From Pseudorhodobacter sp. PARRP1 (GTDB taxonomy: Bacteria > Pseudomonadota > Alphaproteobacteria > Rhodobacterales > Rhodobacteraceae), in contig NKIU01000001.1 of the NCBI GenBank assembly GCA_002256245.1, positions 310,001 through 374,000 of the forward strand: a stretch of DNA of 64,000 nt, written 5' to 3'. The translations under genes and the position numbers were made by a program. This document shows, in pieces, positions 4,123 through 26,505 of this stretch. The stretch's first letter is position 1, and every line of letters begins with the position of its first letter. The notes beneath the pieces were generated by a model that saw only the letters and a program-made list of their open reading frames with translations, was not told the origin of the DNA and searched no databases.

Positions 4123-4123
4123 A

Positions 4124-5359: not shown

Positions 5360-5362
5360 GGG

Positions 5363-7520: not shown

Positions 7521-7541
7521 GGAAGCTCCGTAGGTTGAAGA

Positions 7542-8573
7542 TCAGATGCTGCGCGCAAAGCGGCGCTTTGCACGGTCAAGGATGGCCGCCAGTCCGTTCG
7601 GTTCGGCGACTAGAAATGCAATGATGAGGGTGCCCAGGATGATGCGCTGCACCAGCTCCAGCACGCCTGAGTCGATCATGCCGCCAAAGGCCAAGGCAGA
7701 CAGGCGCGACAGCAGCAGCGGGAACACAACGATCAGCCCCGCGCCAAGGAAGGCCCCGCGCAGGGTGGCCAATCCGCCGATGATGATGATGAACAGCACG
7801 TCGAAGGAACGGTCGTGGTCGAACCCTGCGGGTTCCACGGTGCGCAGGTAGGTGAAGGCCCAAAGGAAGCCTGCGACGCCGATGATGGCCGAGGAGATGG
7901 CGAAGGCCACCAGCTTGGTTTTCAGCACGGGGACGCCGATGATCTGCGCCGCCGTTTCATTGTCACGGATGGCGATCAGGTCATTGCCCAAGGGGCCGTT
8001 GGTGAAGGCCCAGACGCCGAGGGTGATCAAGGTGACGAGGGAAAGCGCCAGCAGGTAGCGGGCGGTGGTGCCGTCAAGGTTGTAGCCGAGCAGGGTCAGG
8101 CTTGGGGACGATATCACGCCAGAGGGGCTGTAGTTGGAAAACCAGCCGAACTTGGTCAGCGCCCATTGCACGAAGAACTGCGCAGCAAGGGTGGAGACCG
8201 CCAGATAGAAGCCGCGCAGGCGCAGGCTGGGAAGGCCGAAGATCAGCCCGACCGCCGCCGCGGTCAGCGCTGACAGCAGGATGGTGACGGGCAGCGGCAG
8301 CGCCAGCCGCAATTGGATGTTATAGGCGGCAAATGCCCCCACTGCCATGAAGGCTGCCGACCCCAACGACACCTGTCCGCCGTATCCGGTCAGCAGGTTC
8401 AGGCCCACGCCTGCCAAAGCAAGGGCGAGGAACGGCAGCAGGATCGCTTCCATCACATAAACCGGGGCAAAGGCAGGCACGGCGATGAAAGCTGCCAGCA
8501 GCAGGGCAATCAGGGGCCAATGGCGCAGGATGTTCGGGCTTTGTAGCGGGGTATCGGTGAGCGCAGTGGACAT
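7542..8573 (-). CDS. LivM-type ABC transporter permease (organosulfur operon)
   Basis: Inner-membrane permease of 343 aa from the chosen ATG, whose A is shared with the stop of the LivH-type gene (TGATG). The longer frame reads into that gene and is rejected. Multiple hydrophobic helices are present. Signature stretches are NLLTGYGGQVSLGSAAFMAVGA and the cytoplasmic loop with DLIAIRDNETAAQIIGVPV, the LivM EAA-like motif that contacts the ATPases. It pairs with the LivH-type permease. Confidence 0.88.
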   Translation of the reverse strand: MSTALTDTPLQSPNILRHWPLIALLLAAFIAVPAFAPVYVMEAILLPFLALALAGVGLNLLTGYGGQVSLGSAAFMAVGAFAAYNIQLRLALPLPVTILLSALTAAAVGLIFGLPSLRLRGFYLAVSTLAAQFFVQWALTKFGWFSNYSPSGVISSPSLTLLGYNLDGTTARYLLALSLVTLITLGVWAFTNGPLGNDLIAIRDNETAAQIIGVPVLKTKLVAFAISSAIIGVAGFLWAFTYLRTVEPAGFDHDRSFDVLFIIIIGGLATLRGAFLGAGLIVVFPLLLSRLSALAFGGMIDSGVLELVQRIILGTLIIAFLVAEPNGLAAILDRAKRRFARSI

Positions 8574-13206: not shown

Positions 13207-14289
13207 TAGGTCAGCCTGAAAATCGCGCAGTCAAGCGGTTTTCAGTTTAGCTCGATTTTTTTTGCTTGAGTAGAAGTCCGAGTCGCTATCGGACCCACGG
13301 TTTTCGAGCAGCAATTTCAAAACCCCTTCTTATAAGTATTAGTTATATTGAAGAAGGGGATTCCAGGAAGGCTAAAAATTTTCGCGCGAAGCGATATATT
13401 CAGGCCGTTGCGAAAAAGCCGCAGCGGTCAGAGACCGAGTTTCGACACCGAAACGAAGTGGGAAACACCAAGATTTATCCTCTATGCTGACGACATGATG
13501 ATGAACATGATGATCCATATCCCTCACTCCATAGAGTGCATAATACGCTGATCCAGACGGGTCGAGCGTTGGGTTCTGTTCAGCTTAGGTTCCATTCTTC
13601 CCCACCAAGACGTCGAATCGCCCGTGAGATACAGGGCAGTTTTGATGCTTCTGATCGGGGCGAAATGGCCAGATCAAAGCAACATCCGCAAAGAAAAATG
13701 CAACTCTCCTTTTGGCTGTAATTTTTTCGCATATCCCACCGAACGAACCGACTGGCAAAACCGCCAGCTCTTCATCGTGGCTATCGCGGTACGATGATCA
13801 AAATCCACAACCTCTATGTGCAAGACCCCAGCGGAAAAATGCGAAAATGCAAAGCAAAGTCAGACTGTTTGTAACTACATGAAAGTTAACGATTTCTTTC
13901 AAATATCGCTCTGAACATTTAGGTTCGTGCAAGTTCGCTCAACGCTCAACAGGATCAAAAAGATGCAAGCTCAGATCAAAGCAGCGCTCACCTCAAAGAT
14001 AGTGTGGCTTCCCGACAGCACTCGCTGAAGGAAAGCAATGCCCATCACTGTGGCTGTCCAGCGTAGCTGACATTTGTCCACAAGTGAGCCGATCTCGGCC
14101 ACGTGCCATCGCAATTGGTGCCCCCCACAAAGGCAGTTCTGAAAACGCCAGCCTGCGCGATTTCTTCGCGCCGGGGATCGTCCATTCATGCCCGCCGTCG
14201 AGGAAATTCAACCGCGCCGTCACGCGGTCAAAGACGCAAAATGGTTCGCCCAACAGGGCGATACTGCTGATTTTTCTAGGAATCCGGCA
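13207..14289. other. About 1.1 kb without an assignable gene between IS5 and the IS66 transposase
   Basis: Only short, unconvincing frames are present. The base composition is visibly richer in A and T than the chromosomal arms, indicating foreign DNA. It contains a perfect 9-bp inverted repeat (CCCCTTCTT 13323-13331 / AAGAAGGGG 13351-13359) around an AT-rich loop. No tnpA or tnpB of IS66 type could be recognised, and the left end of the IS66 element was not located. Confidence 0.5.
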
Positions 14290-16011
14290 ATGGAAGCCGA
14301 ACATCAACCTCTTGGCTTCGATTCCTATGAACTCAGCGATGAGGTCTATCAGGATGCGGAGCAGTTAGTTGGCTTCGATGAGGTTTCTGGTGACCGGATC
14401 ACCGTCAAACTCGCCTGCGATACGATCTTAGATTGCCTTCGAAATCATCCGTCTGGACCGCAGGCAATCACCGCAACGGTCGCGGGTGCAATTGATGACA
14501 TCTTACAAGCCTGCGCCGCGCAAGAGGCCGATTTTTTGAGTTCACAGCTTGTGATCCGCACCTTGAAGCTGGATCTAGCAAACGCAAAAAGCAGCATTCG
14601 AACCCTGCAAAAACAGGTCTTTGGTGAAAGTTCAGAGCGCTCTCTGGACGCTGACAGTGACCATTTGTTCAACCTGTCGCTGGATGAAGAAGCAGATGAG
14701 GAGCAAACACCACAGCAAAAGGGTCGGCGCAAAAGCAAAAAGCCTGCCGATCTCCCTGTGCGGGATGTAGATCATTTCCCGCCTAATCGCACTTGCTGCG
14801 GCTGTGGATGCGAAATGCCTTCGATTGGCTGCGACACGTCTGAACGCATCGTCATCATCCCCGAACAGGTGGTCATTGTCAGAGACAATTACCATCGCTG
14901 CGCCTGCAACAAGGCACATTGCAAAGAAAACAGGCCAGTTTCGGCTAAGTCCCCCCATTTCATTATGAAGGGAAGGTCGGTGGGACTAAGCCTTGTCCTT
15001 GAGGCCGCAATTCAGAAATTCTTTGAGCATTCGCCCAACTATCGTTTTGTGCGTCGCTTACAGCAATCATCGCTGAACATCAGCCGCCAAACGGTGAGCC
15101 GCAATGCGGAATGGTTGGCTGGATTCTTTAAGCCGATTGCAGACGTCATCCTGGCCGAAGTCTTGAAGTCAGAAGTCGTTCAGATGGACGAGACGCCCGT
15201 GCAAATTCAAAATCCGAAGAATGGCAAAAAGGGCAAGACAGACCGCGGCTATTTTTGGGTAATGTGCAAGGATGAGAGCAACTGGAATCCAGATGCCAGA
15301 CCGGCTGTACATTTTGCATACGCCCCAAGCCGCAACGGGGAAGTGGCGCAAAACCTGACCGCAGGAAGCAGTATTCGTTTTCTGCAGACGGACGGTTACG
15401 CGGGCTACAACGCACTATTTGAAAGTGATGGGATCAAAGAGCCAATGACTTCCGTGCGCTGCCTTGCCCATGCGCGACGAAAATTTGTAGACCTCCCAGA
15501 CACTGGCCAGAAGGGGCTAAGATCTTACGTCATTCGAAAGCTCAAAGATGTCTATGCGGTTGAGCCAGAAATCAAAGGCCTAAGCGCCGCAGAGAGAGCG
15601 ACAAAACGACAGGAAAAATCGCTTCCAATCCTGCAAGAGTTGCAAGCAACTCTTGAGCGCACCGCCCCTCAAGCTGAAGGGAAAATGGCCAAAGCGATCC
15701 AGTATATGCTCAAGGCATTCCCGGCGCTGACGCGCTATGTCTACGATGGGCGCCTCGAAATCGACAGCAACGGCATCGAACGCCGCATTCGGGCGGTTGC
15801 GCTCACGAAGAAGAACTCGCTGTTCGCAGGCTCACATGACGCGGCCGCGAGTTGGGCGATCTATTATAGTCTGATCGAGACGGCCCGGCTAAACCGCGTA
15901 AATCCCCGCGCCTATCTCACTTGGGTTGCTGGCGAAATTGAGGCTAAACGCGGTGATGTTGATTACACCCAGTTGATGCCTTGGCACTGCCCGAATGGGC
16001 ATATCACCTAG
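14290..16011 (+). CDS. tnpC: IS66-family transposase (TnpC)
   Basis: 573 aa from the ATG at 14290; the frame extends 34 codons further upstream. Layout: an N-terminal helical region with the leucine-rich stretch LKLDLANAKSSIRTLQKQVFGESSERS, an acidic linker, a zinc-binding domain (TCCGCGCEMPSIGC), then the IS66 DDE core. Core motifs are VVQMDETPVQIQ, TDGYAGYNAL and the C-terminal IEIDSNGIERRIR-like segment (LEIDSNGIERRIR) with the catalytic Glu. No tnpA/tnpB partner is seen, so it may be of the single-gene ISBst12 type or a decayed copy. Terminal repeats were not found. Confidence 0.88.
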   Translation: MEAEHQPLGFDSYELSDEVYQDAEQLVGFDEVSGDRITVKLACDTILDCLRNHPSGPQAITATVAGAIDDILQACAAQEADFLSSQLVIRTLKLDLANAKSSIRTLQKQVFGESSERSLDADSDHLFNLSLDEEADEEQTPQQKGRRKSKKPADLPVRDVDHFPPNRTCCGCGCEMPSIGCDTSERIVIIPEQVVIVRDNYHRCACNKAHCKENRPVSAKSPHFIMKGRSVGLSLVLEAAIQKFFEHSPNYRFVRRLQQSSLNISRQTVSRNAEWLAGFFKPIADVILAEVLKSEVVQMDETPVQIQNPKNGKKGKTDRGYFWVMCKDESNWNPDARPAVHFAYAPSRNGEVAQNLTAGSSIRFLQTDGYAGYNALFESDGIKEPMTSVRCLAHARRKFVDLPDTGQKGLRSYVIRKLKDVYAVEPEIKGLSAAERATKRQEKSLPILQELQATLERTAPQAEGKMAKAIQYMLKAFPALTRYVYDGRLEIDSNGIERRIRAVALTKKNSLFAGSHDAAASWAIYYSLIETARLNRVNPRAYLTWVAGEIEAKRGDVDYTQLMPWHCPNGHIT

Positions 16012-16419: not shown

Positions 16420-16764
16420 GCACCGCTTACGGAATATTTGCGGGCGTGGAGCTATTTCGGCGCGGGTGCTGTGGCGGATTACCCGAGCTTTCGCGAAGGC
16501 TATCAGGATACTGCGGTGATTGACGTGGCCTACGGCGCGGCGCAGTCCGAAGGTGCGGCGGGCACGATTTACAGCACCGTGCCGCTGGCGCTTGCGGCGC
16601 ATCAAACCGATGGAAGCGTGGCGTTCTATGCAGGCTGCTACACGCTGGCCCAAGTGCAACCCGCAGTGCAGGAATTACCGCCGTTTCGCCCCATCGAAAT
16701 CCGTGAAGGCCACCTGCGCCCCGCCAAATCGCTGGACGTGCCAAGCGACGCTTGCAAAGACTGA
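16420..16764 (+). pseudogene. C-terminal remnant of a chromosomal hypothetical gene truncated by the IS66 insertion
   Basis: The last ~110 codons of an open frame (from about YAPLTEYLRAW to SLDVPSDACKD) have chromosome-like codon use. The upstream in-frame part (KTILRGRPKNRSY and before) looks like random translation of AT-richer DNA. The remnant reads AVIDVAYGAAQSEGAAGTIY, then FYAGCYTLAQVQPAVQ, then a proline-rich end, compatible with a secreted hypothetical protein. No start is available, so it is probably dead. Its stop TGA overlaps the first base of the att repeat at 16764, so before the insertions this gene abutted the convergent tRNA-Arg gene. Confidence 0.55.
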
Positions 16765-16779
16765 TGGCGACTCCGGAAG
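16764..16779. repeat. attL-side copy of the 16-bp att core
   Basis: ATGGCGACTCCGGAAG, identical to 26428-26443 inside the tRNA-Arg 3' end. The flanking bases differ on both sides (G/T before, T/G after), so the repeat is exactly 16 bp. Its ATG serves as the likely start codon of the first island gene. Confidence 0.9.
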
Positions 16780-17237
16780 TTATCCGCGATTGGCGTGATA
16801 ACAACGGGTTTGACGGAAAAGTTCCAAGGCCGCAGGTCAAGACAAATCAAGACCTTAGCAACAGCGGTTCCAACTCAAAAACCACCCTCGCGAATGCAAA
16901 CAGCGGCGCCCTCGCACTAACCGGGGCTGTTCCAAGCGAACAGGCATTCGCCGGAAAAGCTCGCATCAGGAACCGCGAAACCGCGTCTGCTTTGTGCCAT
17001 GCAATCCTCGCCTGCGAGCCTATCGACGCCCGCGAAATCATGGTTGTGGCCTATGCTGATCTGTCCATCGGGATGCCGATTGCCCCACTGGTTAGCTTGA
17101 TGGATGAGGCCGATTTCTGGGCTGACATGGCGACGGTCGCCGAGTTGAAGGCCTATTGCCTCGCCTGCTTCAGTCACCTGCCTGCAAGCGAACAATCTGC
17201 TTTCCTCACCTACGTCCAGCAGTCGAGGGCAGCATGA
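16764..17237 (+). CDS. Hypothetical protein, first gene of the island
   Basis: 157 aa if started at the ATG that forms the first three bases of the att core; no closer plausible start precedes the conserved-looking part. The C-terminal half (SALCHAILACEPIDAREIMVVAYADLSIGMPIAP onward) is compact, helical and well formed. The N-terminal third is rich in Asn, Ser and Thr and probably disordered. The stop overlaps the next start (ATGA), so it is coupled to the ATPase gene. No function is recognised; a replication accessory role is possible from context only. Confidence 0.65.
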   Translation: MATPEVIRDWRDNNGFDGKVPRPQVKTNQDLSNSGSNSKTTLANANSGALALTGAVPSEQAFAGKARIRNRETASALCHAILACEPIDAREIMVVAYADLSIGMPIAPLVSLMDEADFWADMATVAELKAYCLACFSHLPASEQSAFLTYVQQSRAA

Positions 17238-18421
17238 GCGTGGAAGACGTGAGGGCGGCTCTCAGCCAAGCCCAGGACGTGAAGTTGCCCGATGATCTGG
17301 ACCGGCAGCGCACCAATCCCCAGTCAACATCTGCCAGTGTTACGCCCTTGCGCGCTGGTGGCGACCAGCTGAGGCCGCGCGCCAAGGCGTTGCTGGCAGC
17401 TGCGGTTTGGTCTGGCGACTTTGAGGCTTCGGTTGACCGCGACTATCTGGTGAAAGGCTGGCTCGACCGTGGCGCCGTGTCGGTGATCTACGGGCCGTCA
17501 AACGTGGGCAAGAGCTTCCTTGCCCTCGACCTCGCACACCACATTGCCAAGGGGCTGCAATGGGGCGGCCGACGCGTGAACGCGGGCCGAGTCCTGTATC
17601 TTGCGGCCGAAGGTGGCACGACCTTTGCCAACCGGGTGGCGGCGCTGCAAAATCCTGCGTTCTGGGTTTTGCAGGTGCCTTTGACCCTTACCGGGAAAGA
17701 CAGCGCGGCTGTGGCGCTTTCGGAAATGATGCAGCACCTGGCCGCGACGGGCGGCGGGAAATTTGATCTGATCATCCTCGACACGCTGAGCCGCGTCATG
17801 GGTGGCAATGATGAAAACGCCGCGCCCGATATTGCCGATCTGGTTCACAACCTCGACCATATCCGGCGCGGCACTGGCGCGCATGTCCTGATCGTGCATC
17901 ACACGGGCAAGGATGCCGGACGCGGCGCGCGGGGCCATTCCTCTCTGCGCGCTGCTATCGACACTGAGATTGAACTTTCGCGGGATGACGAAACAGGCGT
18001 CATCACGGCGGAAGTGACAAAGCAACGTGATGGGCCGACCGGCTACAGGTTCGCCTATTGCTTGCGCCAAGTTGAACTTGGCCGGGATAGCGATGGCGAC
18101 CCGGTGACGACCTGTCTTGTTGAGCCAACGGATTCCGCACAGGCGGGCCGGGTGGTATTGTCGGATGCAGCGCAGAAAGCGGTTGGCATCCTCGACAAGA
18201 TGGTTGCTGAGGGTGGCGAGGTTATCCGCCACCCCAGCTATCCCGGAACGCCTTGTGTGCCTCTGGCCGCGTGGCGTGAAGCCTGTCTCGCTGAGGGGGC
18301 CATTTCTACCGCAAAAGACCGGGAAGGCAGGAGCAGGGTATTCCTGCGCGCCCGCACCGATCTTGAGGCGAAGCGGCTTGTTTTAGTGAGGGATGATAAC
18401 GCTTGGGTGGTGCAGAAATGA
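17234..18421 (+). CDS. RecA-fold AAA ATPase, RepA/DnaB-like (AAA_25 type)
   Basis: 395-aa predicted ATPase resembling hexameric replicative helicases of the RSF1010-RepA type and ATPases of prophage satellites. Walker A GPSNVGKS is at residues 87-94, preceded by the KGWLDRGAVSVIYG strand typical of this group. Walker B is FDLIILDTLSR, with VLIVHHTGKDAGRGARGHSSLRAA as the sensor/DNA-contact region. The C-terminal ~120 aa look like a small winged-helix-type domain. It overlaps the preceding gene by 4 bp and is followed directly by phased iterons, so it is probably the replication protein of the excised element. This role is inferred. Confidence 0.8.
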   Translation: MSVEDVRAALSQAQDVKLPDDLDRQRTNPQSTSASVTPLRAGGDQLRPRAKALLAAAVWSGDFEASVDRDYLVKGWLDRGAVSVIYGPSNVGKSFLALDLAHHIAKGLQWGGRRVNAGRVLYLAAEGGTTFANRVAALQNPAFWVLQVPLTLTGKDSAAVALSEMMQHLAATGGGKFDLIILDTLSRVMGGNDENAAPDIADLVHNLDHIRRGTGAHVLIVHHTGKDAGRGARGHSSLRAAIDTEIELSRDDETGVITAEVTKQRDGPTGYRFAYCLRQVELGRDSDGDPVTTCLVEPTDSAQAGRVVLSDAAQKAVGILDKMVAEGGEVIRHPSYPGTPCVPLAAWREACLAEGAISTAKDREGRSRVFLRARTDLEAKRLVLVRDDNAWVVQK

Positions 18422-18422
18422 A

Positions 18423-18608
18423 CCGGACAGCCCTCACATGTCCGGTGCTGTCCGGTCTGTCCGATGCATCGGACAGCAAGCGTCTGTCCGGTCCTGTCCG
18501 GTCTGTCCGGTTTGCGCATAACCTTCTGACATTTAACGACAATGTCAGGGAGCGCGGGTTGTCCGATTATGTCCGGACAGCACGGCAAGGCGTTATGTGT
18601 TCCGGACA
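18423..18608. repeat. Phased TGTCCGG iterons with a 20-bp palindrome, candidate replication origin
   Basis: About ten copies of TGTCCG(G/A) or its complement. Starts at 18439, 18449 and 18458, and again at 18485, 18495 and 18504, give near 10-bp (one helical turn) spacing. The perfect palindrome CTGTCCGATGCATCGGACAG occupies 18457-18476. A further symmetric pair (TGTCCGGACA) lies at 18570-18579, and single copies occur at 18423, 18560 and 18601. A small hairpin (CTGACATT / AATGTCAG, 18526-18548) lies inside. The block directly follows the ATPase gene. Confidence 0.7.
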
Positions 18609-18620
18609 CTTGGGGGGAAA

Positions 18621-18648
18621 GGGGAAACCCCCCTTAGGGGGGTTCCCC
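18621..18648. terminator. GC hairpin downstream of the iteron block
   Basis: GGGGAAACCCCCC-TTA-GGGGGGTTCCCC forms a 12-bp stem with one bulged A and a 3-base loop. There is no T-run, so it may be a factor-dependent terminator of the ATPase operon or part of the origin structure. Confidence 0.4.
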
Positions 18649-18709
18649 TTCCCACCTCCGGGATACGCCCGAAATCGTTTGGTCTGTCTGGTGCTGGGGA
18701 GTTCTGGCG

Positions 18710-19153
18710 ATGAATAGAAGTGCTCGAAGGAAACTCGCAGCGAATGCCGAAGCTCTATCGGTGCTGATGGCTGCATCGTGCCTCGGCTACAGCAAGGCCG
18801 GGGCATTGGGGCGGATCAAGGATGCGGGTGCCACCAAGGCGCTCGAGGGTGCATTTGCTTCGATGCTGCGCCAAGGGGGCGAGCCGGTGGTGATCCAGAT
18901 TGGCAACGAGGTGGCGAATGCTTTCCCCTTCCAGTCGGTGCCTGATGTGATCTTTGCATCCTTGGCAAAAGCATGGCTTGCGGTCGGCATCGACAGCGAA
19001 GGCAGAGGAACCTATGCCATGCGGCGGCTGGTGATCGCAGGCCGCACAGAGGCGCAGGAGCGTGACATTGCTGAAGTCGCGATGCTGAGTGAGTTGGCGC
19101 GCGAACTGAATGTTCCGGGCTTTCCAGTCAGTGCGAGCATGGGGCGGGCATGA
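18710..19153 (+). CDS. Hypothetical island protein
   Basis: 147 aa, MNRSARRKLAANAEALSVLM at the N terminus, largely alpha-helical by composition. No family was recognised. Codon use matches a real GC-rich gene. It is followed after 2 bp by a GGGGGGCA/TGCCCCCC hairpin (19156-19179). It lies between the iteron block and the tandem-repeat array, so it could act on either; nothing in the sequence proves this. Confidence 0.6.
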   Translation: MNRSARRKLAANAEALSVLMAASCLGYSKAGALGRIKDAGATKALEGAFASMLRQGGEPVVIQIGNEVANAFPFQSVPDVIFASLAKAWLAVGIDSEGRGTYAMRRLVIAGRTEAQERDIAEVAMLSELARELNVPGFPVSASMGRA

Positions 19154-19284
19154 TCGGGGGGCAGCGGCATTTGCCCCCCCTAATACCCCACCCCCATTAG
19201 GTTCTTCCTACAAATCTACTGCCTACGGGCGCGCTAGGGGCAGATGATTTGAGCCGCTAAACAAGCGGGAAAGCCTAAACCATC

Positions 19285-19310
19285 TTGTTTAACTTAATGA
19301 AACTAAACAA
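19285..19310. promoter_or_regulatory. AT-rich segment with an inverted repeat preceding the tandem array
   Basis: TTGTTTA-N12-TAAACAA lies in an AT-rich stretch (about 19255-19335) that contrasts sharply with the very GC-rich repeats beginning at 19342. It could be a promoter, operator or DNA-unwinding element; no specific motif decides. Confidence 0.3.
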
Positions 19311-19341
19311 TTATTTGCAAAAATGCACATTGGTGCGTGGA

Positions 19342-20133
19342 GATCGGGCGGGGTTTAGCGCGGCGGCGCTGGCCCCCGGCACCACGAGGCGCTGGCGGGC
19401 CGTCCTGGCGATCAGGCGGGGTTTTGCGCGGCGGCGCTGGCCCCCGGCACTAGCTCGAGGCTCTGGCGGGCCGTCCTGGCGATCGGGCGGGGTTTTGCGC
19501 GGCGGCGGTGGCCACCGGCACCAGCTCGAGGCTCTGGCGGTCCGTCCTGGCGATCGGGCGGGGTTTGCGCGGCGGTGCTGGACCCCGGCACGAGCTCGAG
19601 TCTCTGGCGGGCCGTTCTTGCGATCGGGCGGGGTTTAGCGCGGCGGCGCCGGCACCACGAGGCGCTGGCGGGCAGTCGCAGCGATCGGGCGAGATTCTGC
19701 GCGGCGGCGGCGGCGGCCCCCGGCACCAGCTCGAGGCGCTGGCGGGCCGTCCTGGCGATCGGGCGGGGTTTAGCGCGGCGGCGGCGGCACCACGAGGCGC
19801 TGGCGGACAGTCGCGGCGATCGGGCGACCTTCTGCTCGGCGGCACCTAGCACCTGCTCGAGTCTCTGGCGGGCCGTTCTGGCGATCGGGCGGGGTTTAGC
19901 GCGGCGGCGGTGGCACCATGAGGCGCTGGCGGGCCGTCCTGGCGATCAGGCGGCATTCTGCGCGGGGGTGGTGGCTAATGGCACCAGCTCGAGGATCTGG
20001 CGGGCCGTTCTGGCGATCGGTCGGGGTTTTCCGCGGCGGCGCTGGCCCCCGGCACCAGCTCCAGGCTCTGGCGGGCAGTCTTGCCGATCGGGCGGGGTTT
20101 AGCGCGGAGGCGGCGGCACCAGGTCGAGGCTAT
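19342..20133. repeat. GC-rich tandem array, 12 units of 61-74 bp with higher-order A/B alternation
   Basis: Units begin with GATCGGGCGGGG (or a close variant) at 19342, 19410, 19481, 19552, 19622, 19683, 19757, 19818, 19883, 19944, 20015 and 20086; the last unit is partial. In units 5-10 a 61-bp form with GGGGTTTAGCGCGG alternates with a longer 65-74-bp form containing TTCTGC, giving a ~130-bp higher-order repeat. Long frames on both strands are by-products of GC content and periodicity. There are no constant repeats with unique spacers, so it is not CRISPR. Confidence 0.85.
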
Positions 20134-20538
20134 TCATGCCAAAAGACCGGAAAGTGCAACAACCCCTTTTACAAACAAAGCCAGTGCAGCCAAGGCGCAC
20201 AGAAGGCCAAGCCCGCGCGACATTTCTAGAGCTATCTCATAGCCCCGCTGGCCCCTGTAGAAATCACACTGCAACTGGAATACCGTGCTGAGGTAAACAA
20301 ACAGCCAAGTCACAGTTCCAAAGAAGGCCCCAAGGCCCCAGCACATAACGACGGTTGCAACTGCCCCGGTGTCATTATTCAAAGAGACAAGTTTATCTGC
20401 CTGCGTCAGCAGCGCAAGCCACGACCCCGAATTGAGCAAGGTGACAGCTGCAACACCACCCTTTGCGGCCGCGATCTGGCGCTCGGTGTGTATATCCCAA
20501 CGTTGATCTAGTTCGGTTTGGTTTCGCAAATCATCCAT
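20134..20538 (-). CDS. Small predicted membrane protein of the island
   Basis: 134 aa with a hydrophilic N terminus (MDDLRNQTELDQRWDIHTER) and two or three hydrophobic segments, notably VVMCWGLGAFFGTVTWLFVY and GLGLLCALAALALFVKGVVA at the C terminus. No family was recognised. Its stop lies at the right edge of the tandem array. It overlaps the upstream 65-aa frame by about 30 bp. The position in a satellite suggests a holin-like, exclusion or accessory role, but there is no direct evidence. Confidence 0.6.
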   Translation of the reverse strand: MDDLRNQTELDQRWDIHTERQIAAAKGGVAAVTLLNSGSWLALLTQADKLVSLNNDTGAVATVVMCWGLGAFFGTVTWLFVYLSTVFQLQCDFYRGQRGYEIALEMSRGLGLLCALAALALFVKGVVALSGLLA

Positions 20539-20705
20539 ATTCCGCTCCAGCTACGCTCTTTTGCTTGGGTAGGATCGAAACCAACTCTATTGCCGCGCCC
20601 ATAAGACCCGTGGGCCCCATATAGTTCGCCCAGGATAAAAGCTGCCCAAGCTTGGCCGGTTTCTGCGTTTGAAACATATTGCACTTCGTGGTTTTCATCC
20701 GGCAT
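20508..20705 (-). CDS. Small hypothetical protein of the island
   Basis: 65 aa (MPDENHEVQYVSNAETGQAW to ICETKPN), acidic at the start and aromatic/glycine rich in the middle. Its 3' end overlaps the start of the membrane-protein gene in another frame. No family was recognised. The composition is gene-like but the length makes the call tentative. Confidence 0.4.
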   Translation of the reverse strand: MPDENHEVQYVSNAETGQAWAAFILGELYGAHGSYGRGNRVGFDPTQAKERSWSGIWMICETKPN

Positions 20706-20802
20706 TCCTAGGATCCTTTTTTAACCGCATGCCAGCGCCTTCGCCATTTTCTGAGTGGAAAAGCGCGCGCTGGCCCGTAAGTACAGCAAAACGCTCTTAG
20801 AA

Positions 20803-21090
20803 CTAAACGTGCCGCTCCGGATGATAGATGAAACGAGCCTCATTTCCGCGTGGCTGATATGGTTGTTGGTGATCAACTGTCACATATGCAATCTCTCCGT
20901 TCAGAATGCTCTTTCGGTATCGCCTCCCAAAGTGTTGCCGCTCTTTCCCACTCCCGATGCCTAGCCAATCCGCACCAAACAGCAGATCCAATCTAAACAC
21001 GCCTTGCACCTGATTCCGCAGGCGAGCGGGAATTGAGGCGTAAGCGGCACGATACAATTCCGATTCTTGATCGAGCGGACGAAATGCCAT
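20803..21090 (-). CDS. DUF1413-like small protein
   Basis: 95 aa. The pattern VQGVFRLDLLFGADWLGIGSG followed by FGRRYRKSILNGEI resembles the DUF1413 family, where a short domain with a conserved Leu-Phe...Trp...Gly arrangement is predicted to bind nucleic acid. The assignment is by pattern memory only. It starts 3 bp after the stop of a ribbon-helix-helix gene, a two-gene unit reminiscent of toxin-antitoxin or regulator pairs. Confidence 0.55.
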   Translation of the reverse strand: MAFRPLDQESELYRAAYASIPARLRNQVQGVFRLDLLFGADWLGIGSGKERQHFGRRYRKSILNGEIAYVTVDHQQPYQPRGNEARFIYHPERHV

Positions 21091-21093
21091 TTG

Positions 21094-21267
21094 TCAGCCT
21101 TTGGTTAACTCAATGAGTTTTCGAATGAACTCTGGCCGCGATGGTTCTGGATCGAGTTTCGCGCGCTCGGCATCGACCCAGGCCAAAAGATCAGGTTGGA
21201 GGCGCAGCGTTATGGGCGTTGCATTCACCGGCGGGCGACCCATACGCTTCTTTTCATTTTCCGACAT
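21094..21267 (-). CDS. Ribbon-helix-helix DNA-binding protein
   Basis: 57 aa from MSENEKKRMGRPPVN; the frame extends upstream but this start is the natural one. The sequence ATPITLRLQPDLLAWVDAERAK is a beta strand followed by helix, and RPEFIRKLIELT is the second helix: the MetJ/Arc-type fold of antitoxins and small repressors. It is transcribed leftward with the DUF1413-like gene, divergently from the rightward gene at 21380. The 110-bp divergent gap is therefore a candidate regulated promoter. Confidence 0.7.
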   Translation of the reverse strand: MSENEKKRMGRPPVNATPITLRLQPDLLAWVDAERAKLDPEPSRPEFIRKLIELTKG

Positions 21268-21379
21268 TGAAAAGTCCTTGACCTGTCCGACTAGATGATG
21301 GCAGAAAGTAAGCGGGCGAACAAGGTGGTGGAACACCTTGCCGCCCTAACCGAAACGCTGATCTTAGGAGGATCACCGA

Positions 21380-21568
21380 ATGGCTAATCATTGCCATATC
21401 ACTCCCGGCTTGCCTGTGGAAACCCTTCACGAAATTCACGATTGCCTCGCCCTGGCATTGGATGCGACCGAAAGCAGGTCAGGCTACAGCCAGCGCGACC
21501 GCGAAGCTCGCAGCTATGTCCGCAGCGCCCTGCGCCAAACCAAGCGCCTGATCGGCGGTGCCCAATGA
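21380..21568 (+). CDS. Small hypothetical protein of the island
   Basis: 62 aa (MANHCHITPGLPVETLHEIH to KRLIGGAQ), predicted helical, with an excellent ribosome-binding site (AGGAGG, 8 bases upstream). The stop overlaps the next start (ATGA), so it heads a coupled rightward cluster. No family was recognised. Confidence 0.6.
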   Translation: MANHCHITPGLPVETLHEIHDCLALALDATESRSGYSQRDREARSYVRSALRQTKRLIGGAQ

Positions 21569-21864
21569 CCGGCTCAGTCCTAACCCGCCGTGATCTTATG
21601 GCTGCAATGCCCGTGCTGGCCTTCCTCCCGGCATTTCCTGCCCAGTCGCTCGAAGTGCTACCCCACCTTGGGGCGGGGAACGATTTGGGGGAGTTTTTCC
21701 AAACGCTCCGACAGATGGACAATGTAGGCCGCGCGAATATGGTCGCATGGTTGCGCGGCCAAGATCACTCGATCTTCAACGCCCTTGCAGACCCTGTAGA
21801 ACGCTACTGCGCCCAGCTTAACGCCGCCGATCAGTTTCGGGGCAATGAAAAGAGGGTGCTGTGA
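21565..21864 (+). CDS. Small protein with a twin-arginine-like leader
   Basis: 99 aa from the ATG at 21565, overlapping the upstream stop. The N terminus LTRRDLMAAMPVLAFLPAFPAQS looks like a Tat or Sec leader: a twin arginine followed by a hydrophobic core and a small-residue cleavage region. The remainder (EFFQTLRQMDNVGRANMVAWLRGQ) is amphipathic. No family was recognised. The reading in the frame of 21391 upstream of this start is not used. Confidence 0.6.
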   Translation: MTGSVLTRRDLMAAMPVLAFLPAFPAQSLEVLPHLGAGNDLGEFFQTLRQMDNVGRANMVAWLRGQDHSIFNALADPVERYCAQLNAADQFRGNEKRVL

Positions 21865-22199
21865 TGGGCGCGAAAATCACACGCCGCGCGGTGTTGGCCG
21901 CAACACCCGCATTGGTGTCCTCAGTTTTTGTTGAGCCCTCCCAGGCGGCACCGAGCAGCCCGATCTTGGTGCTCTACAGGCAATGGCATGTCGTGCGCGA
22001 CCAGATCAACGGTGGCGGGAATGATGGGCCGACAGAGGATCTGCTTTACGCCCGAATGGGTGAAATTGAGGAACAGATTTGGCCTTTGCCTTGCACGACT
22101 GCAGCCGACCTGGCGGCAAAGTATGACGTTCAAACCGACTGCGGTGGTTTCTACGCCGATGATAAGTTTGGCGATGAGTGCAGGGTGTTACTTGGGTAA
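21864..22199 (+). CDS. Small protein with a twin-arginine-like leader, second copy of the type
   Basis: 111 aa from the ATG at 21864 (a GTG one codon earlier is possible). N terminus ITRRAVLAATPALVSSVFVE has the same twin-arginine, hydrophobic-core layout as the preceding protein. The mature part contains ILVLYRQWHVVRDQIN and a negatively charged helix. It partly resembles short prophage hypothetical proteins found in Rhodobacteraceae. Function is unknown. Confidence 0.6.
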   Translation: MGAKITRRAVLAATPALVSSVFVEPSQAAPSSPILVLYRQWHVVRDQINGGGNDGPTEDLLYARMGEIEEQIWPLPCTTAADLAAKYDVQTDCGGFYADDKFGDECRVLLG

Positions 22200-22245
22200 G
22201 CACCAGTTTCGACGTGCCATCGCTTCATTTCGGCGGTGGAGCCTC

Positions 22246-22320
22246 ATAAATGGCAACTTTGCAATCTTTTATCTTGCAACGTTGCCATTTATGAAAGATG
22301 GTAGCTTTGCAACTTATGAA
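22246..22320. promoter_or_regulatory. Operator-like inverted repeat upstream of the DNA-binding protein gene
   Basis: A 19-bp arm (22246-22264, ATAAATGGCAACTTTGCAA) is matched by its complement at 22274-22292 with one mismatch, 9-base spacer. A third partial copy, TTTGCAACTTATGAA, lies at 22306-22320. The gene just downstream encodes a putative helix-turn-helix protein, so autoregulation is likely. The core half-site is TTGCAA-N-GTTGCCAT. Confidence 0.55.
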
Positions 22321-22330
22321 GGATATCGCC

Positions 22331-22873
22331 ATGCGTCTGGCACCGTTTCTTGAAGTCACTGGCATTGGAAAACAGAAGAAGGAAAAGTTCAACGCTTTGC
22401 GGCGTCATGATAATTTGCCGTTCGCGACGCACGATGCTGACAAGGGCGAATGGCAGACTTTTACCCTCGATGATGCGTTTCGCATGCGGCTGATGCTCGA
22501 TCTTGTCGGCGCGGAAGGCGAGGGTGACGATACTTTGCACGGGCTTCCCCCGTCATATGCGGTCAAGCTGGTCAGCAACGCGATGGGTCGCTTTGACCGC
22601 CACCCGCTTTCGAGCCTTGACGGCGCTTTGTGGGCTGGTGTCGCGATCTTCGAGGATACTCCGGAGGGTGCCGAGCCTTATCGCTACTCTCGCTGGTTTG
22701 CTGGCGATCTAGCCGATTTGGCCGCGTGGATCTCCGAAATGAGCAAACGCGAAGATGGCACTCCGGTCCGGCTGTTTGCGGCCAACGCCTCGCGCGCCGC
22801 GAAATTCGTGCGGGACCGGGCAGCGGAGCGGGGTTTGCCCGAAGCTCGGGACTTTTCGCAGGGTGAGGCATGA
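22331..22873 (+). CDS. Putative MerR-like/phage DNA-binding regulator
   Basis: 180 aa from the ATG at 22331, chosen because GAAGGA lies about 8 bases upstream; two earlier in-frame ATGs exist. The N terminus (MRLAPFLEVTGIGKQKKEKF, then ALRRHDNLPFATHD and TLDDAFRMRLMLDLV) fits a winged or MerR-like DNA-binding domain seen in Rhodobacteraceae prophages. The C-terminal part (residues ~100-180) is unassigned. It lies directly after a strong inverted repeat and its 3' end overlaps the protease-capsid start by 4 bp. A regulator of the capsid gene is the simplest reading; a small terminase-like DNA-binding role is an alternative. Confidence 0.55.
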   Translation: MRLAPFLEVTGIGKQKKEKFNALRRHDNLPFATHDADKGEWQTFTLDDAFRMRLMLDLVGAEGEGDDTLHGLPPSYAVKLVSNAMGRFDRHPLSSLDGALWAGVAIFEDTPEGAEPYRYSRWFAGDLADLAAWISEMSKREDGTPVRLFAANASRAAKFVRDRAAERGLPEARDFSQGEA

Positions 22874-24849
22874 AAAACGAGCTTTTCCTCTACGGATCCG
22901 TTGGCGAGTCCTTCTGGGGCGAGGAAAGTTTCACGGCGCTTGAAGTTGCAACAGCATTGGCTGCCCTGAGGGGCCCACTAACCGTTCGCCTCAACAGCGG
23001 CGGCGGTATCGCGACCGAAGGGCAAGCGATCTACACCCTGCTTTCCGAATATTCGGGCAATGTCACGGTTATCATTGATGGCGTTGCAGCCTCGGCAGCT
23101 TCGCTGATTGCAATGGCTGGAAATGAAATCGTGATGCCGGAAGGTAGCCTTATGGTCATCCATGACCCGGCTACACCGATCACCGATGGCCGTGGCACGG
23201 CGGCGGATCACTCTGCAATCGCAAGTATGCTCGAGACGATCTCGGCAGAGTACGCGAAAGTTTACGCGCGGCGATCGGGAAAGAGCGTTGATGAGGCTCG
23301 CGAAATCATGCGGGCTGAAACGGTTTACGGCGGCGCGGACGCGGCCCTGCACGGCTTTGCCACACGCACAGACACCGCCAAGGCGGCAGCATTCGACTAT
23401 CGGATCTATGCAAATGCGCCCCGCGCTCTGCGCGAGGCATCTAATCGCTTCGGGATAGCTCGGAGCAAAGAGGCCGTCTTGGCCATGATCGCAGGGCGAT
23501 CCTGCAGAATGGAGCAGAATATGAACGTCAAAGTGGATGTCGTGGCTGATGATGATCAGTCGCAGCCAGCAGAAAAGTCGCTGGATAAAACCGGCAGGGC
23601 GATCCTGTCCGCAACTGCCAAGGCTGGCTTGCCTGCAAGTTTTGCCAACGACCTGATCAATCGCAATGTCCCGAAAGATGAGGCGCTCACCATGATCTCG
23701 GCAGAATGGAAAAAACAGGGCGACGTAGATGCGCCGATGTTTGGCCGTAAGGCAGAAGTCGGAATGTCGCACGACTCGCCGCAGGCGGTTGCTGCGCGCA
23801 TGGCGGACGGTCTCGCTGCGCGTGTTGGGTCGCGTATCGGCGTGAAGTATGAGCCGAAAGCAGGCGCGGAATTTGCCGAAATGTCAGTGCCGGATATGAT
23901 CGCTGCTTACGGGCGATTGACTGGTGGCGGATCTTCGATCGGCGGGGCACAAATGGCGGGTTATCACACCACCTCGGACTTCGCTTTGACGGCCGGCGCT
24001 GGTGCCATGACGAATGTTGTGAAGGCCGGGTTTGCTGCCCAGCCCCCGGCACTTCTGACTGTCGCCAACAAGAAAAGCGCATTGGACTATCGCAGCGGCT
24101 ACGGTGTCGGGTTGAGCGGATCTGGCGCAATGAAGGTATTGGGCGAATCCGCTGAAATTCAGGCTGTGACCGTCGATGAAACGGGCGAAAACAAGGCTGT
24201 ACCCGATGACCTGGCAGCAATGTTTTTCCTTTCGAATAAGTCGCTGGTGAATGATGGTACCGCGATGCAGATGTTGGCCGAAATCTCGCAAAAGATGCTG
24301 ATCGGCGCTCAACAGACTGCCCGCAACGTCTTGATTGCGCCGCTGCTTGCAAATAGCGGGGCAGGTCAGACCATGCGCGATACAAACCCGTTGTTCTTTG
24401 CTGCGCGCGGAAACCTTGCGGCCAGTGGCGCGGCACTGAGCGTTGCCTCGCTTTCGGTGGCTCGCACGGCGATGGCGCGGCAGGTTGACAGCCAAGGCAA
24501 CGCCTTGGCGCTGGCTCCCAAGTTTTTGGTTGTTCCGCCCGAGCTTCAGACAGTGGCTGAGCAGCTCGTTGCAACGCTACAGGCGAACATCGCCACCTCC
24601 GTTAACCCGTTCGCGGGCAAACTCGAGGTCATCACCGAAGCTGGCCTGACCAGCGCGACGGCGTGGTATTTGGTGGCCGATCCTCTTGCTGATGAGGGCC
24701 TTTGTTATGCCTACCTCGACGGACAGGAAGCGCCTTCCGTTGAATCCAAGGATGCTTGGAACCGCCTCGGCATGGACTTCCGCATCACTTGGGCGCTCGG
24801 GGCGGCTTTCCATGGCTGGCGCGGCTGGTATAAAAACGCCGGAGCGTAA
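22870..24849 (+). CDS. ClpP-like prohead protease fused to phage major capsid protein
   Basis: 659 aa. Residues 1 to ~180 form a ClpP/S14-type head-maturation protease: oxyanion-hole motif NSGGG (42-46), catalytic Ser in GVAASAAS (Ser75) and catalytic His in MVIHDP (His98). Residues ~218-659 are a phage major head protein: an N-terminal charged delta-like region (VVADDDQSQPAEKSLDKTGR) and then a capsid-type domain ending AFHGWRGWYKNAG. A good internal start (GGAG, 6 bases, ATG at 23521) could make capsid alone. Fusion of protease and capsid is known in some phages. No portal, terminase or tail genes accompany it. Confidence 0.8.
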   Translation: MKNELFLYGSVGESFWGEESFTALEVATALAALRGPLTVRLNSGGGIATEGQAIYTLLSEYSGNVTVIIDGVAASAASLIAMAGNEIVMPEGSLMVIHDPATPITDGRGTAADHSAIASMLETISAEYAKVYARRSGKSVDEAREIMRAETVYGGADAALHGFATRTDTAKAAAFDYRIYANAPRALREASNRFGIARSKEAVLAMIAGRSCRMEQNMNVKVDVVADDDQSQPAEKSLDKTGRAILSATAKAGLPASFANDLINRNVPKDEALTMISAEWKKQGDVDAPMFGRKAEVGMSHDSPQAVAARMADGLAARVGSRIGVKYEPKAGAEFAEMSVPDMIAAYGRLTGGGSSIGGAQMAGYHTTSDFALTAGAGAMTNVVKAGFAAQPPALLTVANKKSALDYRSGYGVGLSGSGAMKVLGESAEIQAVTVDETGENKAVPDDLAAMFFLSNKSLVNDGTAMQMLAEISQKMLIGAQQTARNVLIAPLLANSGAGQTMRDTNPLFFAARGNLAASGAALSVASLSVARTAMARQVDSQGNALALAPKFLVVPPELQTVAEQLVATLQANIATSVNPFAGKLEVITEAGLTSATAWYLVADPLADEGLCYAYLDGQEAPSVESKDAWNRLGMDFRITWALGAAFHGWRGWYKNAGA

Positions 24850-24857
24850 TGAAATCG

Positions 24858-24882
24858 GTGCAGGGTGTGCTGCGCCCTGCAC
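24858..24882 (+). terminator. Hairpin after the capsid gene
   Basis: GTGCAGGGTG-TGCTG-CGCCCTGCAC, a 10-bp stem with one G-U pair beginning 8 bp after the capsid stop. There is no T-run, so termination would be weak or factor dependent. The rest of the 228-bp gap to the AlpA-like gene shows no gene. Confidence 0.5.
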
Positions 24883-25076
24883 TGACAGCCGGGATGCCTT
24901 GGGGGCGTCCTGGCGGGACAAGCGGGGGGTGTCCTTAATAACTCCCGCAGCGCAGGCAGTGGACATTTCCGCCCCGCGGGCCTGCGCAATCCAAACAAGC
25001 CGCAACTAAGATAAGACCCCCTGTTTAGGTCCAGATCGCAGGTGCTATTTAGGGCCGCGATGAATGAGGTAAGCCT

Positions 25077-25322
25077 ATGACCGCCCGCCCCGCCCCATTC
25101 CCCTTTCCGACCGGGCTACGCCGTGCCGCTGCTGCGGTTCACTGCGGTGTTTCGGCAGGGCATTTTGACCGTATGGTGAAAGAGGGTGTCATGCCTGCGC
25201 CGCGTGATCTGTTGGGCGTTAAGACGTGGCTGCGGCAAGAATTGGACGAGGCGCTCTTTTCATTGCCGACAATCGGGGACGAAGGAGGCGGCAACACATG
25301 CGACGAGGCATTCGGACTGTGA
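25077..25322 (+). CDS. AlpA/excisionase-like small DNA-binding protein
   Basis: 81 aa. The segment AAVHCGVSAGHFDRMVKEGVMPAPRDLLGVKTW resembles a MerR/AlpA-type helix-turn-helix plus wing, followed by LRQELDEAL. It overlaps the integrase start by 25 bp, the usual place for a recombination directionality factor or integrase regulator. Length fits the family. Confidence 0.7.
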   Translation: MTARPAPFPFPTGLRRAAAAVHCGVSAGHFDRMVKEGVMPAPRDLLGVKTWLRQELDEALFSLPTIGDEGGGNTCDEAFGL

Positions 25323-26401
25323 AGCTAAAGCACCTCAATGCCGCAGGATCTTTCCCAAGCGGCAACGAGCGGCTTTACTATCGCCCCAAGGGTCAAAAAG
25401 GCATCGCCATGCCCGACCTGCCCCGCGATCACCCCAAGTTTCTTGCGGCTTATGCAGCGGCGGCTGGCCTGTCCGAATTGCCCATGCCCTCGGCGCGCTC
25501 TGGCAGCATTGGCGCAGGCGTGACGGCATTTCTGGTGTCGGCTGAGTATCTCGCGCAATCCCCTGGCGTAAGGGCGCACTGGCGGCGCGCGCTGGACCGC
25601 ATCCGGGTAAAGTATGGAAACGCGAAAATGAAGGATCTTCAACCACAGCATATTCAGAAGGATTTGCAGGGCTTGAACCCGCACCCGGCAAACAATCGTT
25701 TGCGGGTTTGGCGCGCGATCTGCAACTGGTGGCATGATCAGATTATGATTCCGGGCAACCCAGCCGCAGAGGTGAAGCGCCACAAGGTTCCGAAGTCGGA
25801 CGGTTTCACAGTTTGGCAGGAAGCCGACATTCAAGCTTTCCGCGATCATTGGCCGCTGGCGTCTGCAGAGCGTTTGGCGTTTGAAGTGCTGCACTGGACC
25901 GGGGCCAGAATGTCGGACGCCATCGCGTTGACCGAAGGCATGGTCGGCAAAGATGGCTGGCTGACCTACACCCAAGGCAAAACGCGCAATGAGGTTGTGC
26001 TTCCGTTCCGCGCATCAGCCCCCGAATTTGCGGAACCTGACGGGCAAGTGATGCTTTTGACGGCGCTTGATGCCAGACCGTCACGCCATGCCGTGCTGAT
26101 CGTCACCAGCTTCGGGAAGCCCCGCTCTGTCAAAGCGGCCTCGGCATGGTTCGCAGCGGCGGCGCGGGCGGCGGGCGTCAAAGGCAAATCAGCTCACGGG
26201 CTGCGCAAGTGGCGCGCAGGGTTGATGGCTGGCAACGGTGCCAGCACCAATCAGATCGCGGCGTGGCTGGGCCATGAATCGCTGAAAATGGTGGAGCATT
26301 ACACCAAGAAGGCAGACCGGAAACGGATGCTGACCGGAACGGGCGGGGAACGCCAAAGTTCCAACTTTTTGGCAGAAGTTCCAAAACAGGCAGTAAAGTG
26401 A
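25298..26401 (+). CDS. int: Tyrosine-type site-specific integrase of the island
   Basis: 367 aa from the ATG at 25298, which has GGAGG at good distance; the longer frame overlaps the AlpA-like gene. A SAM-like core-binding domain occupies ~70-160. The catalytic set is intact: Arg204 (WTGARMSD), Lys228 (TQGKTRNE), His300 and Arg303 (HGLRKW), His326 (WLGHES) and nucleophile Tyr335 (VEHYTKK). It ends 27 bp before the att core in tRNA-Arg. In the excised circle it would read towards the first island gene. Confidence 0.93.
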   Translation: MRRGIRTVKLKHLNAAGSFPSGNERLYYRPKGQKGIAMPDLPRDHPKFLAAYAAAAGLSELPMPSARSGSIGAGVTAFLVSAEYLAQSPGVRAHWRRALDRIRVKYGNAKMKDLQPQHIQKDLQGLNPHPANNRLRVWRAICNWWHDQIMIPGNPAAEVKRHKVPKSDGFTVWQEADIQAFRDHWPLASAERLAFEVLHWTGARMSDAIALTEGMVGKDGWLTYTQGKTRNEVVLPFRASAPEFAEPDGQVMLLTALDARPSRHAVLIVTSFGKPRSVKAASAWFAAAARAAGVKGKSAHGLRKWRAGLMAGNGASTNQIAAWLGHESLKMVEHYTKKADRKRMLTGTGGERQSSNFLAEVPKQAVK

Positions 26402-26427
26402 TGGAAAATCATATGTTTAGAAAAGCT

Positions 26428-26443
26428 ATGGCGACTCCGGAAG
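26428..26443. repeat. attR-side copy of the 16-bp att core within tRNA-Arg
   Basis: ATGGCGACTCCGGAAG covers the CCA end and part of the acceptor/T arm of tRNA-Arg(TCT), so the insertion leaves the tRNA gene intact. Confidence 0.9.
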
Positions 26444-26505
26444 GACTTGAACCCTCAACCCCAGACTTAGAAGGTCCGTGCTCTATCCAGTTGAGCTACG
26501 GAGCC
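26429..26505 (-). tRNA. tRNA-Arg(TCT)
   Basis: 77-nt cloverleaf on the minus strand. The acceptor stem GGCTCCG pairs with CGGAGTC (one G-U), the discriminator is G and CCA is encoded. The anticodon stem CGGAC/GTCTG holds loop CTTCTAA with anticodon TCT. The T loop reads GGTTCAAGTCC. Its 3' end is the attachment site of the adjacent island. Confidence 0.95.

Follow-up and report, generated by a model that had tools for sequence, protein, structure and literature searches.

In this study, we describe a 9,664-bp integrated element in a 64,000-nucleotide stretch of the genome of Pseudorhodobacter sp. PARRP1 (contig NKIU01000001.1, positions 310,001 to 374,000 of the forward strand; hereafter the window). 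The element encodes a fused head protease and major capsid protein, and capsid-bearing islands with no detected terminase or portal gene recur in other genomes of the Rhodobacteraceae. It is bounded by two 16-bp direct repeats, attL (16764..16779) and attR (26428..26443). The repeat, ATGGCGACTCCGGAAG, is identical at both ends, and no third copy was found on either strand of the window. The right copy overlaps the 3' end of the integration target, a tRNA-Arg(TCT) gene (26429..26505, minus strand), which was identified with ARAGORN and, in agreement, with Rfam. The repeats, and the location of one of them in this gene, had been proposed in a preliminary description of the DNA, and both points were borne out. 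As a control for chance, random 117-bp pieces of the window were compared with the 16 kb to their left: an exact common word of at least 16 bp was obtained in 27 of 299 cases, and in 2 of 300 once pieces from regions rich in repeats (39-49 kb and the array within the element) had been set aside. The att repeats are also backed by their integrase-side position and by sister elements, which have repeats of 18-52 bp at the corresponding place.

From left to right, the element comprises o161, an AAA_25 ATPase gene, iterons, orf147, a 71-bp tandem array, four small minus-strand open reading frames (ORFs), three small plus-strand ORFs, orf191, the protease/capsid fusion, an AlpA/excise-like gene and a tyrosine integrase gene. 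The fusion gene (22870..24849, plus strand) encodes a protein of 659 residues, in which a ClpP-like prohead protease (approximately residues 1-215) precedes an HK97-type major capsid protein (approximately residues 300-659). It is complete, as it matches PHROG 133 over residues 4-658 (E 3e-89), and it also matches Pfam Phage_capsid_4 and, over the full length, NCBIfam NF045540 (E 2.4e-83, below the strict cut-off of the model). A profile built from 13 such capsids matched the solved major capsid protein 9jod (E 2e-9). The gene is followed by a hairpin-rich spacer (24850..25076, plus strand) with a predicted RNA fold of -105.7 kcal/mol (z -3.47), a value reached by none of 200 shuffles, which is a candidate terminator, attenuator or packaging site. 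The AlpA/excisionase-like protein (25077..25322, plus strand) was recognised by phrog_25900 (E 8e-11) and by TIGR01764 (E 0.015, below its cut-off), and a 49% identical relative adjoins the integrase in one related locus (L054). The tyrosine integrase (25298..26401, plus strand) matches Pfam Phage_integrase (1.3e-15) and phrog_1. Thus the Pfam, PHROGs and NCBIfam scans confirmed a complete integrase, an AlpA-like gene and a single protease-capsid gene, as had been read from the DNA earlier.

The replication end is led by o161 (16764..17237, plus strand), a conserved first gene whose frame begins within attL, followed by a RepA-type hexameric replicative helicase (17234..18421, plus strand; Pfam AAA_25, 2.5e-41). 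The helicase matches structure 1g8y (E 1.5e-7), which we take to be RSF1010 RepA, and has a 94% identical counterpart in the genus-mate G306. Directly behind its gene, nine of the 16 copies of TGTCCGG in the window are clustered at 18423..18608, and the 20-kb locus of G306 has 14 copies, of which 13 lie at the equivalent place; this iteron cluster is a probable replication origin. The pairing of ATPase and iterons made in the preliminary description therefore stands for these nine short motifs; the 71-bp tandem array (19338..20112; 11.4 copies, 75% GC) is separate from them. That array was seen in the window's copy of the element only, and since none resembling it was found in 19 other element stretches, it was ruled out as part of the conserved system. 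Between cluster and array lies orf147 (18710..19153, plus strand), 93% identical in G306.

Homologues of o161 were found in L049 (46% identity), L050 (28%), L051 (40%) and L074 (84%, residues 69-161). In integrated elements, the reading frame of o161 begins within or across attL. When the ends are read as joined in a circle, the integrase end supplies in-frame start codons for o161 in 8 of 11 elements; in three of those eight (L081, L087 and L090) the frame is very short, and in the five with a real o161 frame (the window, L049, L050, L074 and L083) the integrated state also has in-frame start codons. As start codons are in frame in both states, the start codon alone is no proof of an excision switch. 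The two states differ in a ribosome-site-like AGGAG, seen by eye ahead of the circle's start in L049 and L083, and there is a weak indication from these junctions that excision might turn on o161 and the helicase behind it.

Genes for packaging and for the rest of the virion were searched for within the element. Ten proteins were scanned against Pfam and PHROGs, and six of these together with the four minus-strand ORFs against NCBIfam. In addition, hidden Markov models (HMMs) were purpose-built for terminase, portal, connector and tape measure, the last two from one sequence each and hence weak. None of the four was found in the element by any of these means, and whole-genome searches with Pfam GpA-ATPase and Phage_portal_2 gave no match inside it. 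Neither a large terminase nor a portal would fit into the ORFs still unassigned, which are too short. Neither an HNH nuclease nor a terminase was matched among the element proteins scanned, and a small terminase of a novel family may hide among the unassigned ORFs. No tail or lysis genes were found, as judged by the lack of family matches and the single weak tape-measure HMM. The absence of terminase, portal, tail and lysis genes noted in the preliminary description thus held up in family scans, and for terminase and portal also in our own HMMs and in the whole-genome Pfam searches. Moreover, the element does not appear to be the remnant of a larger prophage: relatives with both ends identified are islands that measure 9.0-12.1 kb and sit at a tRNA or tmRNA gene, and neither the missing genes in the element nor larger versions of it in relatives were found.

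Searches of 295 genomes of the family and 15 of the same genus yielded 40 fetched loci (L), which were annotated with the proteins of Paracoccus phage Psul1 and those of the loci themselves. Nine loci (L050, L051, L081, L083, L086, L087, L089, L090 and L091), here termed class A, carry a large terminase, a portal, a capsid and an integrase, with a tRNA gene beside the integrase end in seven of the nine. In L050 and L051, Pfam and PHROGs identified the terminase as GpA, the portal as Phage_portal_2 and the small terminase as phrog_57. The class A backbone resembles that of the window: o161 comes first and a replication gene is present in some, small accessory genes follow, orf191 or another small protein stands ahead of the head genes, an AlpA-like gene occurs in some, and the integrase and tRNA gene close the series. 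L086 shows this series with terminase and portal in place. Elements of this kind recur in family genomes at tRNA-Phe, -Pro, -Arg, -Glu and -Cys genes and at the tmRNA gene; the preliminary description had suggested a search at tRNA-Arg in other Rhodobacteraceae.

The backbone and the head genes have not always travelled together. Most of the o161-RepA-orf147 block of G306 is 91.5-91.8% identical to that of the window at the DNA level, and the capsid of G306 is only 35% identical and lies at a different place in an element at tRNA-Phe. The loci L114 (11644-21565, Pseudorhodobacter turbinis) and L200 (901-11002) have the same RepA family and an integrase, with orf191 in L200, and carry instead an HK97-type terminase, portal, S78 protease and capsid. 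Head modules thus seem, from these gene arrangements, to be exchanged wholesale between islands. A protease/capsid fusion of the same kind was also noted at 3793-5640 of a 10,541-bp Klebsiella aerogenes plasmid (NZ_CP142848.1), which is possibly an extrachromosomal capsid-forming satellite.

A marker protein of the family is orf191 (22298..22873, plus strand), with homologues in seven other fetched loci, both with and without terminase. A search of 50,697 phage records at E 0.01 gave no match to it, and a single-sequence search located it in 6 of 295 family genomes (the window's genome counted, one match weak), so that it looks like a satellite-specific factor. A profile search of solved structures gave one weak match for orf191 (E 0.019), which was not informative. 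Our guess is a DNA-binding regulator or packaging factor, DNA binding being suggested by the N-terminus. Small terminase was considered as a role and is less likely, since the terminase-bearing L051 holds both a small-terminase match (phrog_57) and orf191; a further count against it is that orf191 adjoins the integrase in L195 and L200, loci with no detected capsid of the window type.

Islands with a capsid and no detected terminase or portal, here termed class B, comprise 12 loci: those of the window, G306, G297 and G302 from the same genus, those of G073, G189, G213, G037, G001 and G215 from elsewhere in the family, and two found later in G696 and G736. In HMM scans none of the 12 showed a terminase or portal, and all keep the capsid. 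Contig ends cut off one or both ends of L053, L054 and L057 and leave only the capsid end in the short loci L072 and L085; for these incomplete loci the absence rests also on whole-genome GpA and Phage_portal_2 searches of ten hosts, which gave no match on the element contigs save prophage matches about 100 kb away in G297. Terminases of other families were excluded on frame size only, except in the window, where the family scans also speak against them. Eleven of the 12 loci have a protease frame with the capsid, and the remaining one (L085) is truncated where the contig stops. The Ser and His residues that presumably form the ClpP-type active site are kept in all nine class B proteases aligned, and are visible also in L216.

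Membership of class B could be predicted. When a profile of the first ten capsids was run against 394 family genomes, the seven known members drawn scored 609-706 bits, the previously unseen G696 and G736 scored 539 and 537, and all other listed matches scored at most 421. On inspection, G696 and G736 proved to have capsid, protease and integrase with no terminase or portal. Of six lower-scoring loci fetched alongside, four had both terminase and portal, L221 had a portal and no terminase on a 7.5-kb contig, and that of G737 was a truncated capsid among host genes. A search of 385 Alphaproteobacteria listed 16 places, and the 12 of these that were fetched all carried terminase and portal. In the maximum-likelihood tree built from 45 capsid-domain rows, the 12 class B rows are together on one side of a branch supported at 92/97; the corresponding branch of an earlier tree of 40 rows, ten of them class B, had 80/97. 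Both values are below the starred level of the tool (95/80), the tree is unrooted, and L061, L067 and L068, with broken or partial frames, were omitted.

Class B elements are also similar in length. The five with both ends identified measure 9,512 bp (G306; 50-bp repeat, one mismatch), 9,667 bp (G297; 52 bp, one mismatch), 9,682 bp (G073; 18 bp), 9,956 bp (G037; 18 bp, two mismatches) and 9,664 bp (the window), with a mean of 9.70 kb and a standard deviation of 161 bp. Six class A elements range from 9,851 to 12,118 bp (mean 11.1 kb, standard deviation 969 bp; Levene p 0.004). Addition of G696 (9,030 bp, 13-bp repeat) raised the class B standard deviation to 308 bp (p 0.007). The sample is small and partly related, and the repeats used for sizing are weak in G037 (two mismatches), G696 (13 bp), G153 (one mismatch) and G042 (15 bp); no convincing end repeat was found for 12 further tRNA-linked loci, nor for G736.

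The class B capsid is under strong purifying selection in the one pair in which this was measurable. The capsids of G073 (L056) and G213 (L085), from different genera and different tRNA genes, are 90% identical as proteins, with a synonymous divergence (dS) of 0.85, a non-synonymous divergence (dN) of 0.058 and, over 460 codons, a dN/dS of 0.069. Two other pairs were saturated at silent sites, and the window's nearest capsid relatives are too distant for the calculation.

The two halves of the window's fusion protein have different affinities. The protease domain (residues 1-215) groups at 95/98 with those of five Psul1-like proteins from phages or prophages (L055, L058, L059, L048 and L041), to which it is 56-60% identical, and is 33-46% identical to eight other class B proteases. 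The capsid domain is 35-46% identical to the five class B relatives of its own subclade and 26-33% to the five Psul1-like proteins; forcing it into the Psul1-like group, chosen after the tree had been seen, was rejected (approximately unbiased test, p 0.0001). With a Psul1-like protease domain and a class B capsid domain, the gene is a chimera, and a protease part has passed between the satellite lineage and such a phage. This exchange is a trace of contact with a Psul1-like phage, not proof of help.

As in a phage satellite, the element combines an integrase with att repeats at a tRNA gene, its own replication functions (the RepA-type helicase and iterons) and no complete set of virion genes, and it is very probably an integrated satellite. 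We further propose, at a probability of roughly 0.6 and from gene content, that it builds its own head around a helper's portal and has it filled by the helper's terminase. A helper phage would trigger excision from tRNA-Arg through the integrase and the AlpA-like protein, and the RepA-type helicase would, from the functions of its family, replicate the circle from the TGTCCGG iterons. At this stage orf191 might switch on or guide late functions, which is a guess. The fusion protein would make an HK97-type shell belonging to the element, and the protease, as in its family, would cut away the scaffold part and itself. As portal, terminase, connector and tail genes are missing, the shell would have to use those of the helper, with its portal as the base for assembly, its terminase for filling and its tail to complete the particle. 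The lineage size of about 9.7 kb is consistent with a small shell of fixed capacity. The chances appear evenly balanced for a broader version, in which the whole lineage contributes the shell only and takes portal, motor and tail from unrelated helpers, giving a head made by two genomes, with protease exchange tuning shell to portal and shell capacity fixing the length at about 9.7 kb.

Several observations weigh against the proposal of a shell completed by a helper. Excision, packaging, particles and the helper itself are predicted from genes alone. No empty integration site was found in the genus: of the 15 genus genomes, counting that of the window, 14 have the right flank of the element, and none of 13 loci from relatives matched the left flank of the window. 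Among these relatives the left flanks of L101 and L103 are the same, and the rest differ except for one 134-bp match between L098 and L104. The integrase frame of G073 is split, so that autonomous movement may be lost in at least one member, and the RepA match of G736 is shortened. Among 84 capsid loci from IMG/VR (the best 80 of 132 capsid relatives and four from an orf191 search) there was no capsid-only element, 78 having a portal and six beginning within the capsid frame; this result is also one of no trace of class B particles. IMG/VR is biased towards contigs on which known viral genes occur. Lambda-type terminase and portal are present at two prophage-like loci of the host genome, which also has a third, partial match to terminase. 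By eye, the head genes of the two prophage-like loci are unlike those of the window, and cos- or pac-like DNA common to them and the element was not evident (13 common 15-mers, against 17 in a control stretch). In Pfam searches, lambda-type terminase and portal were wanting in five of the ten class B host genomes. This last point is not decisive, because one capsid-forming phage-inducible chromosomal island (cfPICI) is reported in a review to be mobilised by phages foreign to its strain and by none of the 17 prophages of that strain (PMC11389934).

The same facts can be read in other ways. The capsid and protease might act against the helper, by co-assembly with its head proteins or by their cleavage, so that satellite DNA travels in remodelled helper capsids. 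The constant company of a protease frame and the phage type of the window's protease domain, which could act on phage substrates, would suit such a role, and satellites that remodel helper capsids exist (PMC10945586). We nevertheless regard it as rather unlikely, since the capsid domain is full length and clusters with satellites apart from Psul1-like phages, and since related islands hold complete head modules, which makes shell-building the simpler descent. If instead class B were a decaying capsid-forming satellite that had lost terminase, portal and connector and was no longer transferable, defects such as those of G073 and G736 would be expected. Other decayed forms do occur: the capsid is broken in G252 and truncated in G737, and a 3.07-kb derivative at tRNA-Cys in G051 (L061 9009-12123, 48-bp repeats) retains an o161 relative, a capsid C-terminus and an integrase alone. 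Independent, repeated decay is not expected to yield one clade, and the 12 class B loci lie on one side of one branch; their capsid frames are intact, dN/dS is 0.07 in the measurable pair, the active site is conserved and the five closed elements are of similar size, all of which makes decay improbable. Portal, motor and tail might finally come from a gene transfer agent or another resident element and not from a phage. Gene transfer agents are known in Rhodobacteraceae, and half of the class B hosts lack the lambda-type genes. Such agents package random short DNA pieces, so that an element using them would not need its own capsid, and nothing positive turned up, no search aimed at them having been made; we consider this origin highly improbable.

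Set beside known systems, the element proposed here as the source of its own shell is closest in kind to cfPICI, whose set comprises capsid, protease, portal, connectors, both terminase subunits and HNH, as described in PMC10690885. Like these islands, it is integrated and has an integrase, an AlpA-like gene, its own replication gene and an HK97-type major capsid protein with a head protease, and no tail genes were found. Its relatives hold terminase, portal and capsid on the same backbone, and two related islands have an HK97-type head module, one including an HNH endonuclease. The window element and its clade show only capsid and protease, with no portal or connector (the connector HMM being from one sequence), terminase or HNH gene found, a difference from cfPICI as described there. 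As portal and terminase were searched for and not found, the element was not classed as a cfPICI. The preliminary description could not match the gene set to a known system; it can now be placed in a terminase- and portal-less branch of a capsid-forming satellite family, of which the long tandem array is not a part.

Classical PICI, P4 and PLE satellites similarly depend on a helper for virion parts and have their own integrase and replication, but they use or reshape the helper capsid (PMC11389934 and PMC10690885), whereas the window element encodes its own. The Streptomyces phage satellites MulchRoom and MiniFlayer are likewise small with their own capsid, but have both terminase subunits and a portal, and no primase (PMC10690885). 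The Paracoccus phages vB_PsuS_Psul1 and vB_PbeS_Pben1 share the fused protease/capsid, with a protease domain 56-57% identical, but are complete phage records of 38-40 kb with annotated terminase, portal, tail and lysozyme genes. The literature searched contained no report, judged by title and start of abstract among the matches listed, of satellites with a capsid only or of these Rhodobacteraceae islands. In the sources considered, satellites either take the helper's head or bring a head with their own portal and motor, and a shell with protease only would be an intermediate. If the proposal is true, the interface of portal and capsid between two unrelated genomes is directly testable, and the protease chimera offers a concrete guess at the helper, namely Psul1-like phages. 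Among tRNA islands that have a lone capsid gene and are easily taken for phage remnants, some may then be working satellites.

The remaining ORFs of the element are small. The four on the minus strand, of 134, 65, 95 and 57 amino acids (20134..21267), are accessory and gave no NCBIfam or PADLOC match. By eye, the 57-residue product resembles a ribbon-helix-helix regulator; the 65-residue product has a relative in L074 (29 residues) and the 95-residue product one in L216 (59%). The plus-strand ORFs of 62, 99 and 111 amino acids (21380..22199) have relatives in L073, L074, L215 and L216 and gave no Pfam or PHROGs match, nor did the latter two match PADLOC; both of these begin with twin-arginine-like signals, as seen by eye. 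No defence cargo was matched by PADLOC among the seven window proteins scanned, which did not include orf191, o161 and the 62-residue product.

Additional features were noted in related elements. That of G073 carries a GmrSD-type restriction gene as cargo (L056 5782-7476) and a 9-bp repeat of 13 copies with 99% matches (7508-7627), and that of G297 has a second, partial copy of the capsid C-terminus near a Fic-family gene (L073 7154-7408). At the end of a Cypionkella metagenome-assembled contig (L033, JAGPBG010000013.1), a capsid C-terminus is 66% identical to that of the window over 44 residues; this locus is too short to class, as is L062, which carries an integrase and tRNA-Glu. In the window itself, an ORF of 607 amino acids resembling an IS66-type transposase by eye (14188-16011) lies immediately to the left of the element. 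Further along, 27-bp repeats form long runs in opposite orientations at 39298-42879 and 44712-48452, which by eye resemble the repeats of RTX-type calcium-binding proteins.

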